The translations under genes were made by a program, and so were the position numbers. The notes below the pieces were generated by a model. It was not told the origin of the DNA and did no database searches. It saw nothing but the letters and a program-made list of their open reading frames with translations. From a virus, in the IMG/VR virus record IMGVR_UViG_3300032296_000933, positions 1 to 29,445 of that record: a stretch of 29,445 nt of DNA. One strand, written 5' to 3'. The first letter of the stretch is position 1. Each line of letters starts with the position of its first letter. Of the stretch, positions 18,312-29,181 are shown piece after piece.

Positions 18312-18646
18312 GAGATTGGAAAGAATTGGATGAGCAGGACTGCATTCAAAGGATGGATGCGCTCAATGTCAAAGGCAGTTATGGAGGTGCGACCTACATA
18401 GTTAACTCCATCAATGGCGAATTTTGGGAATGGGTTATGCCGATAGCACAGGTACACGGACACAAATTAGATAACAAGTTCGTTGTGTGGTACGATTGTC
18501 AAGACAAATTTATGCGATTGAGAGGGATCAATAAAGACAAAACCGCATCATCTTCGATGAAAATTTGGGAAGGTATAATGCCACCGCAGTTACTCGCAGT
18601 ATATAACGAATTAAAACAAGTAAAAATCAAAATCACAGATATATGA
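18308..18646 (+). CDS. Early hypothetical protein
   Basis: 112 residues. It begins MRDWKELDEQDCIQRMDALN and has a Trp/Tyr-rich central beta region (GEFWEWVMPIAQVHGHKLDN, VVWYDCQDKFMRLRGINKDK) and a C-terminal helix. It ends four bases into the SSB-like gene (ATGA overlap). No family is recognised; pairing with the SSB-like gene suggests a DNA-related role, but nothing in the sequence shows it. Confidence 0.65.
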   Translation: MRDWKELDEQDCIQRMDALNVKGSYGGATYIVNSINGEFWEWVMPIAQVHGHKLDNKFVVWYDCQDKFMRLRGINKDKTASSSMKIWEGIMPPQLLAVYNELKQVKIKITDI

Positions 18647-19098
18647 AAACAAGTAAAATCAAGTCCATTCAAAACAATGGCACATGGAAAGACCTCTTCA
18701 AATTTGAGGTCGAAATGGAAAATGGAGATGTCGGTGGATGCTTTGCTGCATCACAAGAACCTCCATTCAAAGTTGGAGATGAAAAGCAGTACGATTATAC
18801 CCAAAACGGTAGGTACTGGAATATCAAATTTGCAAAAGAGCAGAAACCTGCGTGGAATGGTGGAGGTAAGTCATTTGGAAAATCAAATGAAGATAAGTCC
18901 GCAGATATTGCACGTGCGGTAGCTTTGAAGGCAGCAGTTGACTTGCATAAAGGCGAAGGCGAACCCATCAACCAACAGATTGGGATGATATGCGCCACTG
19001 CTCAGGCATTCGAAATCTATCTTACTACCGGTGAAAATCCTTACAAGGATGCTATTCAAGATGGTAAAATGAATAACGCTGATGACCTCCCTTTTTAA
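18643..19098 (+). CDS. Single-stranded-DNA-binding-like protein with acidic DDLPF tip
   Basis: 151 residues. The N-terminal 60 or so form an OB-fold-like pattern (FKFEVEMENGDVGGCFAAS; YDYTQNGRYWNIKFAKE). Next is a Gly/Lys-rich linker, then a helical segment (IARAVALKAAVDLHKGEGEP; QQIGMICATAQAFEIYLTTG). The C-terminus is NNADDLPF, the acidic-then-Pro-Phe ending by which bacterial SSBs recruit partners. Likely role: coating single-stranded DNA during replication in the same unit as the initiator. The last two sense codons and the stop sit in a strong -1 frameshift cassette (19089-19123) that would add 21 residues after the tip. Overlaps the upstream gene by four bases. Confidence 0.65.
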   Translation: MKTSKIKSIQNNGTWKDLFKFEVEMENGDVGGCFAASQEPPFKVGDEKQYDYTQNGRYWNIKFAKEQKPAWNGGGKSFGKSNEDKSADIARAVALKAAVDLHKGEGEPINQQIGMICATAQAFEIYLTTGENPYKDAIQDGKMNNADDLPF

Positions 19099-19123
19099 GG
19101 GGGGTTATCAACTTTGATAGCCC
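19089..19123 (+). promoter_or_regulatory. -1 programmed frameshift signal: heptamer plus stem-loop
   Basis: The zero-frame codons CTC CCT TTT TAA contain C CCT TTT (19089-19095), an exact X_XXY_YYZ heptamer. Six bases later starts a nine-pair hairpin: GGGTTATCA (19102-19110), loop ACTT, TGATAGCCC (19115-19123), with one G-T pair. The spacing matches known -1 frameshift stimulators. Slippage would bypass the TAA at 19096. Confidence 0.75.
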
Positions 19124-19160
19124 GAAAGAATTAATTGATTACTTAAAAAAATTGAAATGA
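19095..19160 (+). CDS. -1 frame extension of the SSB-like protein
   Basis: After the slip the frame reads LRGVINFDSPKELIDYLKKL and a final K before TGA at 19158-19160, a 21-residue amphipathic helix-like extension. The frame has no ATG or GTG, is closed upstream by a TGA at 19083-19085, and can only be reached by frameshifting. Its TGA overlaps the ATG of the next gene at 19157 (ATGA), the same junction seen between many genes here, which supports real translation. The long form would bury the DDLPF tip. Confidence 0.65.
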   Translation, partial: LRGVINFDSPKELIDYLKKLK

Positions 19161-19384
19161 AATTTAGAACACTAATTAGAACCCACTACCCAAGTACCTA
19201 CGAATTCGCGAAGGCAATGGGAGTGACTTGGCCAACTGGCAGGAAGTACGAAACGTACCCAATCACAATGAGCATTCAGCACATTGATAAGTTATCGAAA
19301 ATGATAAACGTTGACAAATGCGAATTGATCTTATTGGCAGTAGCTGAAAATGAAAACGAACACGAACCTGTAAATTATTTGTAA
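19157..19384 (+). CDS. Small HTH-like protein
   Basis: 75 residues: MKFRTLIRTHYPSTYEFAKA, then MGVTWPTGRKYETYPITMSI and a hydrophobic C-terminal helix. The order of helix, short turn (MGVTWPTGRKYE) and second helix resembles a small phage helix-turn-helix protein related to Cro/CI-type folds, but it is short and lacks a clear recognition helix signature. It may regulate early genes or bind the replication origin. It directly follows the frameshift extension of the SSB-like gene. Confidence 0.5.
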   Translation: MKFRTLIRTHYPSTYEFAKAMGVTWPTGRKYETYPITMSIQHIDKLSKMINVDKCELILLAVAENENEHEPVNYL

Positions 19385-19601: not shown

Positions 19602-19758
19602 AATCCTACAATTCATAAAAAAACTATATACCTATAATCATTGTGATACTTGTGGTTTTACAAAAGATTCAGTTTATGTAACAGATTTTTTTTTAGAAGC
19701 TGGTATAATACAATGTGAAAAATGCGTTTTAAAACACAAAGGAGGTCAAGATGAATGA
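19594..19758 (+). CDS. Small zinc-ribbon-like protein
   Basis: 54 residues with two C-x-x-C pairs: CDTC (residues 17-20) and CEKC (41-44), a compact zinc ribbon: MNKILQFIKKLYTYNHCDTC, then an aromatic spacer and CEKCVLKHKGGQDE. Both its start region and its end are copies of the same 16-bp repeat, so it may have entered between the flanking genes by repeat recombination. Partner or target is unknown. Confidence 0.7.
   Translation: MNKILQFIKKLYTYNHCDTCGFTKDSVYVTDFFLEAGIIQCEKCVLKHKGGQDE
19741..19756 (+). repeat. 16-bp direct repeat carrying RBS and start, second copy
   Basis: Second copy of GGAGGTCAAGATGAAT, at the end of the zinc-ribbon gene and the start of the DnaA-domain-IV-like gene (ATG at 19751). 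Confidence 0.85.
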
Positions 19759-20308
19759 GATAATACTAAACGCAATTGATTCAATCGAAAAACAACTTGC
19801 ACACCTGCGTGAGTTGGTGGTTAACCAACCAGAAGAAATGAAATCAATTCAAGAAACAAAAGTTATTGATGACATTATCAGCGATGCGTGTCTTAATTTG
19901 ATGAATGTCAAATACAGTGAGATTCAAAGTCGCACACGCAGGAGGGATGTAGTGGATGCACGTGCTATCGTTATTGCCTTCAACTATTTCACGAATAACA
20001 AAAAGACCTTGCGTGACATTGGTGCGCCTGTTGGAGTTGATCACTCAACCGTACTCCATTCAATCAAAAAATTCTGTGACCTTTACAAGATAGATGGTCA
20101 ATGGAGATTCATAGTGAATGATTTTTTTGAGGCATTCGAAAATAATGGTTATAATTGCACAACAACTAAACAATACTTAACAGATGGACATCAATACTTT
20201 AATATGCGAGGTACTCTCACTAAAAGAGAGAGTGAGCCAGTTGGAAAGTCAGTTGAACAACCAACAAATAAAATCGAAAGGATGTCTTTTCACTGCGCCA
20301 TCTCTTGA
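19751..20308 (+). CDS. DnaA domain IV-like replication initiator
   Basis: 185 residues. Residues 38-110 match the DNA-binding domain IV of DnaA: SDACLNLMNVKYSEIQSRTR, then RRDVVDARAIVIAFNYF and the signature GVDHSTVLHSIKKF (DHSTV at 97-101). The ATPase domain of DnaA is absent, so this is a stand-alone DNA-binding module that probably marks the phage origin. The N-terminus is a helical region that could oligomerise or bind partners. The last 40 or so residues overlap the following gene by 125 bases and look less protein-like, so the true functional end may be earlier. No DnaA-box cluster was located by eye. Confidence 0.75.
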   Translation: MNEIILNAIDSIEKQLAHLRELVVNQPEEMKSIQETKVIDDIISDACLNLMNVKYSEIQSRTRRRDVVDARAIVIAFNYFTNNKKTLRDIGAPVGVDHSTVLHSIKKFCDLYKIDGQWRFIVNDFFEAFENNGYNCTTTKQYLTDGHQYFNMRGTLTKRESEPVGKSVEQPTNKIERMSFHCAIS

Positions 20309-26856: not shown

Positions 26857-29181
26857 TTAGGCGTATTTAATTGAACCTCTTGATGGTGTATTTATGGGAG
26901 CAACACCTTCAACTCCTTTCTTTGGAACGAATGGGTTATTGCCCACACGCTTATCATTTTCAAGACCTTCGTTAGGCAAAATTCTACCTTTTGAATCTCT
27001 CTTTCTCATATAGATTTGACGCTTCCAAAAATGATGACAAAATGCGCCACCTTTGTAGACGAAAATATCATAGGTGCTTTGTCCAGTTGGTGCGAAATCT
27101 CCATTCACTCCTTTGTCACTCATCCTCTTTATATCTTCGTATCTAAACACCGCACCTGATGCCGACATTCCCACCATATCAATGCAGAATTCTCTTGAAT
27201 TTGCAGAAAGATTTTGAGAATATGCGTAACGTAATTTGTAAAGTCCTGCATCTCCCCATTGTGATTTCTCCCCACCATTTGCATCACTCATTGAAGGCAT
27301 CTTGTTGAATAGTTGTGAGGTGTAGTTTAATTCATTTTCAGGATCAAGTACATCTTCCTCACTTATCAATTCCCATTCCTCTTTGTCTATATATTCAGCT
27401 TTGCTTTTTAATTCATCAATGAAGATTCTCCCTTCCTCATCTGTGAAATCATTTGAAGATTGACACACGTGCGCTGACTGCTCAACATTCACACGCTCAA
27501 CAATTCTCTTTGCCCAATCTCTCCCTGCATCACCTCCCCAAAGTTGCCAAGCTATTCGACCTGCTGTTGGAAATCCATCTTCACCTTGATTCCATCCAGT
27601 TGCCTCTTTGTCTACTTCGTGCCTTGAAAAGTAACTATTCATCCTTTGCACTGTATCAAAAGATAAATTCCGTTTATTACTGATGTCTCTCGCTCTTGCT
27701 ACTCCGACCTCAGTACCACCTCTACCATATTCCTCTCGCCACTTTAATCCAAGTTCCGCTTCACCTGCCATTTCATCGGTAGGCTCGTAACTTTCTAAAT
27801 TAACTTTTTTTTTTTGGACTACTTGCGTGGGATCAATAGCGACATTGGATAGGTTATCGAATATCTCGCTTATTTGAACATCGGACAACATTGGGAAAGA
27901 TGCCTTTGTGATTGCTTTTGCACTTGGAATGGTCAAGACATTTGCAGTAGTCTGTACAATGATTTCAAGTAGTGATGCAATTTGCGCACCATTCAATGCT
28001 TGACTTGCAACATCAACTGGTTGTGCTACTTCACCTGCTGCATCCACTACCATCTCATCAGCGAACAAATCATTCTGCACAATTTTAACTTCACCAAATA
28101 CACCAAATGATGCCAACGCTTCCTCTACTGCACCTGTAATTAATCTTTGAAATGGCTCAATTACTTGACGCTGAAAAATACGCATCGCAGTTTTCATCTC
28201 ATCGGTATTGCTACCCAATCCACCGCCATCACGCACACCAAATAACAAAGGAGATGTAACACGATGGCTTACCAAAATTGCCTCTACCGATTGGTCAACC
28301 AATGTGGTGAATTGCTTATCCATATCACTAACAGGAAACGGAGTGAATTCAACACCTCTATCTCTTTCTTCATTAAAGAATGTCAATACCTTCCCTGCAT
28401 TTTCTGCGCTACCCAATGACATTTGCAATTGATTCTTTATCATATGCTGTTCCTCCAATGATGGGATGCCATTATTGAAAGATGCAATCAAAGATGGGAA
28501 GAAACCATTTAAAATAAGATTGACCTGGTACTCGCTCAACTGCCTCATCTTTTCAATCTCATTGATTGCACCAACGTAATCAGGTTTGGGATAATACTCA
28601 CTACCAACCATCAAACTATGCACGAATAATACTTGCTTTGGCTCAGCTTCGTTAGTATTAACATCGAACATCGGAATATAATGCGGTGTATTCTTTTTCT
28701 TCCGCATATCCGACCAGTCACGTGAATACCACACACCAACAACATCATCTTCCTCATCACTACAAGCAAGGCGGCAATTCTCAAATGGAAGGTGGTTTAT
28801 CTGTGCGATAGTACTTCTATCCATTGACCAAATAATTTCCCAATAAAAACCTCCGTGTAACTTTAAATCTAATGAGGTTGGATGGATAATTGAATCCAAC
28901 TTCAATCGCTGAATTTCTTTTACCGCTTGTGGAGTGGATGCAGTCAATTCTTTTCCTGCAATCATATAACTAATTGAGTTCACCAGTGCGCCGTGAACAG
29001 GTGACTCATTGTAAAGTTCAATCAAGTATTGAGGGAACGCATTGCTCTCCCCATAGTTAACCCATCCCTTTCTATCTTCCTTTTCAATGGGATCAATTTT
29101 AACGTACTTGGACATCTCTATTTGAGTTGCTCCAATGCGTTGCTTTATTTCGTCAATGTTAGCCATTGTATTCGATGTCAT
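26857..29181 (-). CDS. Portal protein with extra C-terminal domains
   Basis: 774 residues, longer than a usual portal. Residues 1 to about 370 form the HK97/PBSX-type portal core (GWVNYGESNAFPQYLIELYN; ESPVHGALVNSISYMIAGKE; SHRVTSPLLFGVRDGGGLGS). About 380-450 is a helical segment like that of phage head proteins. About 460-570 holds LKWREEYGRGGTEVGVARAR, NSYFSRHEVDKEATGW and IAWQLWGGDAGRDW, a small module I recall attached to other phage head proteins. About 600-745 holds a domain with SREFCIDMVGMSASGAVFRY, DIFVYKGGAFCHHFWKRQIY, resembling the MuF-like head morphogenesis region. It overlaps the junction gene; the second Met (29166) is an alternative start. Confidence 0.85.
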   Translation of the reverse strand: MTSNTMANIDEIKQRIGATQIEMSKYVKIDPIEKEDRKGWVNYGESNAFPQYLIELYNESPVHGALVNSISYMIAGKELTASTPQAVKEIQRLKLDSIIHPTSLDLKLHGGFYWEIIWSMDRSTIAQINHLPFENCRLACSDEEDDVVGVWYSRDWSDMRKKKNTPHYIPMFDVNTNEAEPKQVLFVHSLMVGSEYYPKPDYVGAINEIEKMRQLSEYQVNLILNGFFPSLIASFNNGIPSLEEQHMIKNQLQMSLGSAENAGKVLTFFNEERDRGVEFTPFPVSDMDKQFTTLVDQSVEAILVSHRVTSPLLFGVRDGGGLGSNTDEMKTAMRIFQRQVIEPFQRLITGAVEEALASFGVFGEVKIVQNDLFADEMVVDAAGEVAQPVDVASQALNGAQIASLLEIIVQTTANVLTIPSAKAITKASFPMLSDVQISEIFDNLSNVAIDPTQVVQKKKVNLESYEPTDEMAGEAELGLKWREEYGRGGTEVGVARARDISNKRNLSFDTVQRMNSYFSRHEVDKEATGWNQGEDGFPTAGRIAWQLWGGDAGRDWAKRIVERVNVEQSAHVCQSSNDFTDEEGRIFIDELKSKAEYIDKEEWELISEEDVLDPENELNYTSQLFNKMPSMSDANGGEKSQWGDAGLYKLRYAYSQNLSANSREFCIDMVGMSASGAVFRYEDIKRMSDKGVNGDFAPTGQSTYDIFVYKGGAFCHHFWKRQIYMRKRDSKGRILPNEGLENDKRVGNNPFVPKKGVEGVAPINTPSRGSIKYA

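Follow-up and report, generated by a model that had tools for sequence, protein, structure and literature searches.

The DNA analysed here (the window, which is the whole 29,445-nucleotide stretch of IMG/VR virus record IMGVR_UViG_3300032296_000933) is a fragment of a tailed-phage genome that encodes a portal protein, a large terminase, an XkdF-like protease and an M15 peptidase. The best-covering relatives of its portal protein are those of the flavobacterial Nonlabens phages, at 31% identity, and because of this kinship the host of the window phage is likely a member of the Bacteroidota. A different portion of the same portal ORF (positions 26857-29181, minus strand, 774 aa), approximately residues 450-600 and separate from the part matched by the Nonlabens phages, is 50-60% identical to Roseobacter phage proteins, which suggests that it is an added domain. 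The locus considered below is the gene for a small protein with an acidic C-terminal tip, and its features are collected in Table 1. A few genes downstream of it, positions 19751-20308 encode a phage protein that contains the C-terminal DNA-binding domain of DnaA (Bac_DnaA_C, E 1.8e-11).

Table 1. Features of the SSB-like gene and its 3' end in the window
Feature	Position	Strand	Basis
Zero-frame ORF, 151 aa, SSB-like	18643..19098	+	OB-like N-terminal half, helical C-terminal half, DDLPF tip
Competing upstream hairpin holding heptamer and stop	19081..19109 (19081-19093 with 19097-19109)	+	Folding
Slippery heptamer C_CCT_TTT, at the tip's Leu-Pro-Phe codons	19089..19095	+	Present in 52/52 relatives
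-1 frame extension LRGVINFDSPKELIDYLKKLK, 21 codons plus TGA	19095..19160	+	Open frame, conservation, selection
Zero-frame stop TAA (TAG in some relatives)	19096..19098	+	Sequence
Downstream hairpin, 9 pairs, 4-nt loop, 6-nt spacer after heptamer	19102..19123	+	Probable frameshift stimulator
Downstream ORF (75 aa; weak match to a Cro/C1-type HTH), with an ATG overlapping the stop of the extension	19157..19384	+	

The product of the zero-frame ORF has no Pfam match and no sequence match in the PDB. Its predicted fold (mean pLDDT 67) has a five-strand OB-like N-terminal half at residues 2-63, and the best structural Z scores are 6.9 to RecO and 5.5 to SsbB. The DDLPF tip is present in the window, in the 33 relatives that were read out in full and in all 45 distinct sequences of the family (below). 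Given this tip and a modelled OB-like half in which we have moderate confidence, the protein is probably a single-stranded DNA-binding protein (SSB). Searches for its relatives among cultured phages and among genome contigs found none.

The ORF ends GAT GAC CTC CCT TTT TAA, and the original prediction was that a programmed -1 ribosomal frameshift on these codons extends the protein past its tip. The description of the DNA on which that prediction was built proved exact: the heptamer lies where it had been placed, the -1 frame is open for 21 residues, and the TGA that closes it is part of the ATGA at 19157-19160. It had also been claimed that this frame can be entered only by shifting, and in the window a TGA does lie three codons upstream of the shift, and the first 19 extension codons include no ATG, GTG or TTG.

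Is this arrangement maintained in other phages? Loci gathered by similarity to the SSB alone numbered 53, one of which is cut by the end of its contig, leaving 52 that reach the C-terminus; removal of duplicates gave 45 distinct sequences, 44 of them full-length. All 52 keep CTC CCT TTY TAR and have a -1 frame that stays open for 20 or more residues, and in none is the extension encoded in the zero frame without a shift, so that the homologue alignment proposed as a check on the original prediction came out in its favour. The slip codons seen are TTT TAA, TTC TAG, TTC TAA and TTT TAG; the T/C changes at the last position of the heptamer thus leave frame 0 with Phe and a stop, and frame -1 with Leu (TTA or CTA). 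The tip codons CTC and CCT are invariant in 44 of 44 full-length sequences, while other Leu and Pro codons in the gene vary. In the Ala-Asp-Asp-Leu-Pro codons synonymous variability falls to 0.16 of the mean for the gene, and no other five-codon window among the C-terminal 68 codons is as low. Members of a sister clade, 44-66% identical over the first 77 residues, end for the most part in -DLPF, -DIPF, -SVPF or -NMPF and have neither the CTC CCT TTY heptamer nor the extension; from this distribution, the two elements probably originated together, in the window's own clade.

The substitutions in the extension have a protein-like pattern. Pairwise pN/pS for the -1 frame is 0.48, compared with 1.10 and 1.49 for the other two, and it is 0.43 in the part of the -1 frame past the downstream hairpin. 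Of 2000 simulations of neutral evolution on the SSB tree, with divergence scaled to that observed, 7 remained free of stops, 33 had a pN/pS value as low as that observed, and none had both. By this measure the -1 frame is evolving as protein, under protein-level selection. Selection maintained over 45 distinct sequences rules out a simple indel or a decayed fusion, and readthrough of the stop was also rejected, as a stop closes the zero frame 11 or 15 codons on in nearly every member and this stretch, with the pN/pS of 1.10 given above, evolves free of protein constraint. The region might instead be an untranslated structured RNA or DNA element, for example one that regulates the mRNA through two competing hairpins; such an element could be at home with the strong upstream hairpin of the window (below) and with the constraint on the Ala-Asp-Asp codons, which lie before the heptamer, but it does not account for a -1 frame that is stop-free in every member and is substituted in a codon pattern even past the hairpin, and we consider it very improbable. 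Least credible of all is a separate small protein that starts inside the -1 frame from a rare codon or by reinitiation. Ribosomes that terminate on the SSB gene do adjoin this frame, but the first 18 extension codons contain no ATG, GTG or TTG in any of the 52 relatives, an Ile/Val codon there varies between ATC and GTC, conservation begins at the slip codon itself, and the heptamer is conserved. Entry from farther upstream meets a -1 frame stop 3-4 codons before every extension.

The original prediction included a nine-pair hairpin six nucleotides past the heptamer as the stimulator of the shift, and this part stands with reservations. The hairpin is present as described (19102-19110 with 19115-19123, loop ACTT); RNA folded from 19096 on gives a minimum free energy of -13.1 kcal/mol (z -3.4 relative to shuffled sequences), and the hairpin is more stable than recodings that keep the -1 frame peptide unchanged (in the window p 0.005, mean z -2.6 over 29 variants). 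No variant lacks it (-8.7 to -16.3 kcal/mol), and one branch (GGGGAC...GTCCCC) makes it in a shifted register. In a fixed register, however, no stem pair has changes on both sides, and the hairpin has a competitor: its 5' strand, GGGGGGUUAUC, can also pair with the upstream GAUGACCUCCCUU in a stem of 13 pairs at -20.3 kcal/mol (z -4.8). RNAalifold favours pairing of GAUGACCUCCCUU with AAGGGGGGUUAUC, a hairpin that encloses the heptamer and draws on the same G-rich strand, and in free RNA the upstream hairpin is the stabler of the two. A ribosome that has reached the heptamer would open the upstream stem and so free the G-rich strand for the downstream hairpin. We regard the downstream hairpin as a probable frameshift stimulator, with a role weaker than originally claimed because of the upstream competitor and because no stem is obvious in some members of a second family (below).

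An extended product could also arise from the mRNA itself. If RNA polymerase were to add a U in the run of five Ts, the edited message would encode the same fusion, and most members do have TTTTT at this point, where one extra T suffices. But TTTC interrupts the run in 6 of 45 sequences of the window family and in 12 of 35 of the streptococcal family described below, leaving no run longer than three Ts with the frame nevertheless kept, which argues against transcriptional slippage; the invariant Leu and Pro codons upstream are, moreover, of no use to slippage on a T run. We give this explanation very little weight. Among translational routes, a slip by only the P-site tRNA, at the stop codon, would yield an identical product, and slippage on the full heptamer is favoured over it because CTC CCT is invariant. 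Both C_CC.U_UU.U and C_CC.U_UU.C are shift-prone in measurements made in E. coli (PMC4066793), a property that may not hold in the host of the window phage.

SSBs of streptococcal phages with the same layout (L280, L276 and L270) emerged from a scan for DDLPF tips encoded by the heptamer. A search of phage records with the extension only found 35 streptococcal phages, and 18 SSB regions were taken for comparison. Thirteen of these have the extension and all 13 carry CTC CCT TTY; the heptamer occurs in none of the five that lack it (PH15, Javan288, Javan399, OlisA3 and Javan150). Among viral contigs, the search by extension similarity gave 35 loci (L528-L562), every one with CCCTTTY TAA on DDLPF, and a search of species-representative genomes for the extension gave none. 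These SSBs are named DUF669 or single strand DNA binding protein in their records, and the gathering score of PF05037 (DUF669) was not reached in one member (15.7 bits vs 21) and another was unmatched. The extension is 50-62 aa long in the -1 frame, with pN/pS of 0.41 there vs 1.15 and 1.09 in the other frames, and none of 2000 neutral simulations matched it. It is predicted to be a folded alpha-beta domain (pLDDT 81, pTM 0.61) with a weak match to DUF1816 (E 0.004). A Sak4-like gene adjoins the SSB gene, and the gap of about 170 nt between SSB and primase genes has no annotated gene in most of the GenBank records examined. No stem at the usual spacing is obvious in the S. pneumoniae and S. 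suis members that have the extension. The streptococcal family is unrelated to the window SSB, and the shared design is an independent recurrence.

Two members depart from this layout. In a prophage (L544, from position 1501) the -1 extension joins the primase in the same frame, and a shift there would make an SSB-primase fusion with 332 aa past the tip; this run-on could be a sequencing indel. In L562 a short tandem duplication near position 1600 breaks the extension, and relatives with an intact one exist. A scan of tips encoded by ATC CCT TTY gave no third convincing family. GC-rich SSB-like genes that end in DDIPF (L294, L311, L350, L384, L393 and L400) have a conserved ORF in the +1 frame, which is likely an ordinary overlapping gene because a start-type codon is conserved seven codons upstream. 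In L057 and L080 SSB-like tips are followed by runs of G, and the short, non-conserved -1 frames there were put down to chance.

A conserved cassette, a protein-like -1 frame without a start codon and the recurrence of both in a second, unrelated family make a programmed -1 frameshift very likely in the window family, and the original prediction of a frameshift is supported by these points, all of them drawn from comparison of sequences. Its further proposals, a fixed ratio between the two forms and a purpose in balancing partner recruitment, are inferences. In the mechanism that we propose, most ribosomes would finish at the stop after DDLPF, which yields an SSB-like protein whose acidic Pro-Phe tip is free. 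Some, stalled by the downstream hairpin, would slip one base back on C_CCU_UUY, the tip's own codons, bypass the stop and append some 20 residues (50-62 in the streptococcal family). The tip would then be internal, and partners that depend on it should therefore not be recruited by the extended form, or others may be recruited through the new tail. This whole explanation, with its free-tip and extended forms, we hold to be highly probable, with slightly less assurance than the frameshift by itself.

What the shift is for is a separate question, and two of the answers, which are compatible with frameshifting and do not exclude one another, concern the far end of the extension and its content. 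The -1 frame could serve mainly to carry ribosomes to the next start, the peptide itself mattering little: the next ATG lies 60-63 nt past the zero-frame stop in all 52 relatives and in most overlaps the stop of the extension, and in the sister phages, which have no extension, the next gene often starts directly at the SSB stop. Such coupling is unlikely as the main purpose, for the extension is under selection at the amino-acid level and the streptococcal one is predicted to be a folded domain. The extension is also retained where the following gene has been replaced by a different one. (The gene behind the cassette is swapped among the phages, as seen when 19157-19384 is compared with relatives L004, L013, L024 and L032, and the cassette stays.) A second answer is that the extension adds a new docking or folding module and that hiding the tip is not the purpose. 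The predicted streptococcal domain and the conserved residues of both extensions speak for a module, and we think this a realistic possibility, if the less probable one, since in both families the shift is placed on the tip codons when positions that spare the tip existed. Because of that placement every extended copy loses its free tip, and we put the chance that masking the tip, or tuning its exposure, is the purpose of the frameshift at about even.

One gene gives two forms of a replication protein by a -1 shift in E. coli dnaX as well; there, however, the shift truncates the protein, whereas the shift in the phage SSB gene would extend it and cover its docking tip. A search of open-licence papers for an SSB regulated by frameshifting found no description of one. 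Among phages, -1 frameshifting is known in tail chaperone genes (lambda G/GT) and in coat protein genes (T7/T3 gene 10 and Lactobacillus phage A2) (PMC5009743), where the slip is likewise near the end of the gene and puts a C-terminal extension on a minority product; those are structural or assembly proteins, whereas the protein here coats DNA and its slip site is its functional tip. IS3/IS911-type cassettes (PMC4066793) share the X_XX.Z_ZZ.N heptamer, spacer and stem, and differ in that here Leu-Pro-Phe codons dictate the heptamer and an upstream hairpin competes with the stem. A functional parallel is the SSB of phage HK620, a DUF669 protein that requires its six C-terminal residues to recruit the recombinase Sak4 (PMC5928155), and for which no frameshift is reported.

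We suggest, tentatively and at somewhat less than even odds, that unrelated phage SSB families have converged on making the CTC CCT TTY tip slippery, so that a set fraction of subunits has its tip buried under a tail. The free tip of SSB is where replication and recombination proteins dock, which makes SSB their hub, and a frameshift on the codons of that tip would set the number of tips per strand. If this is correct, mixed oligomers would tune how many partners (Sak4, primase and others) are held by each coated strand, and the effect of having only some SSB tips free becomes a testable question. A frameshifted SSB would also add a replication gene to the known cases of phage recoding.
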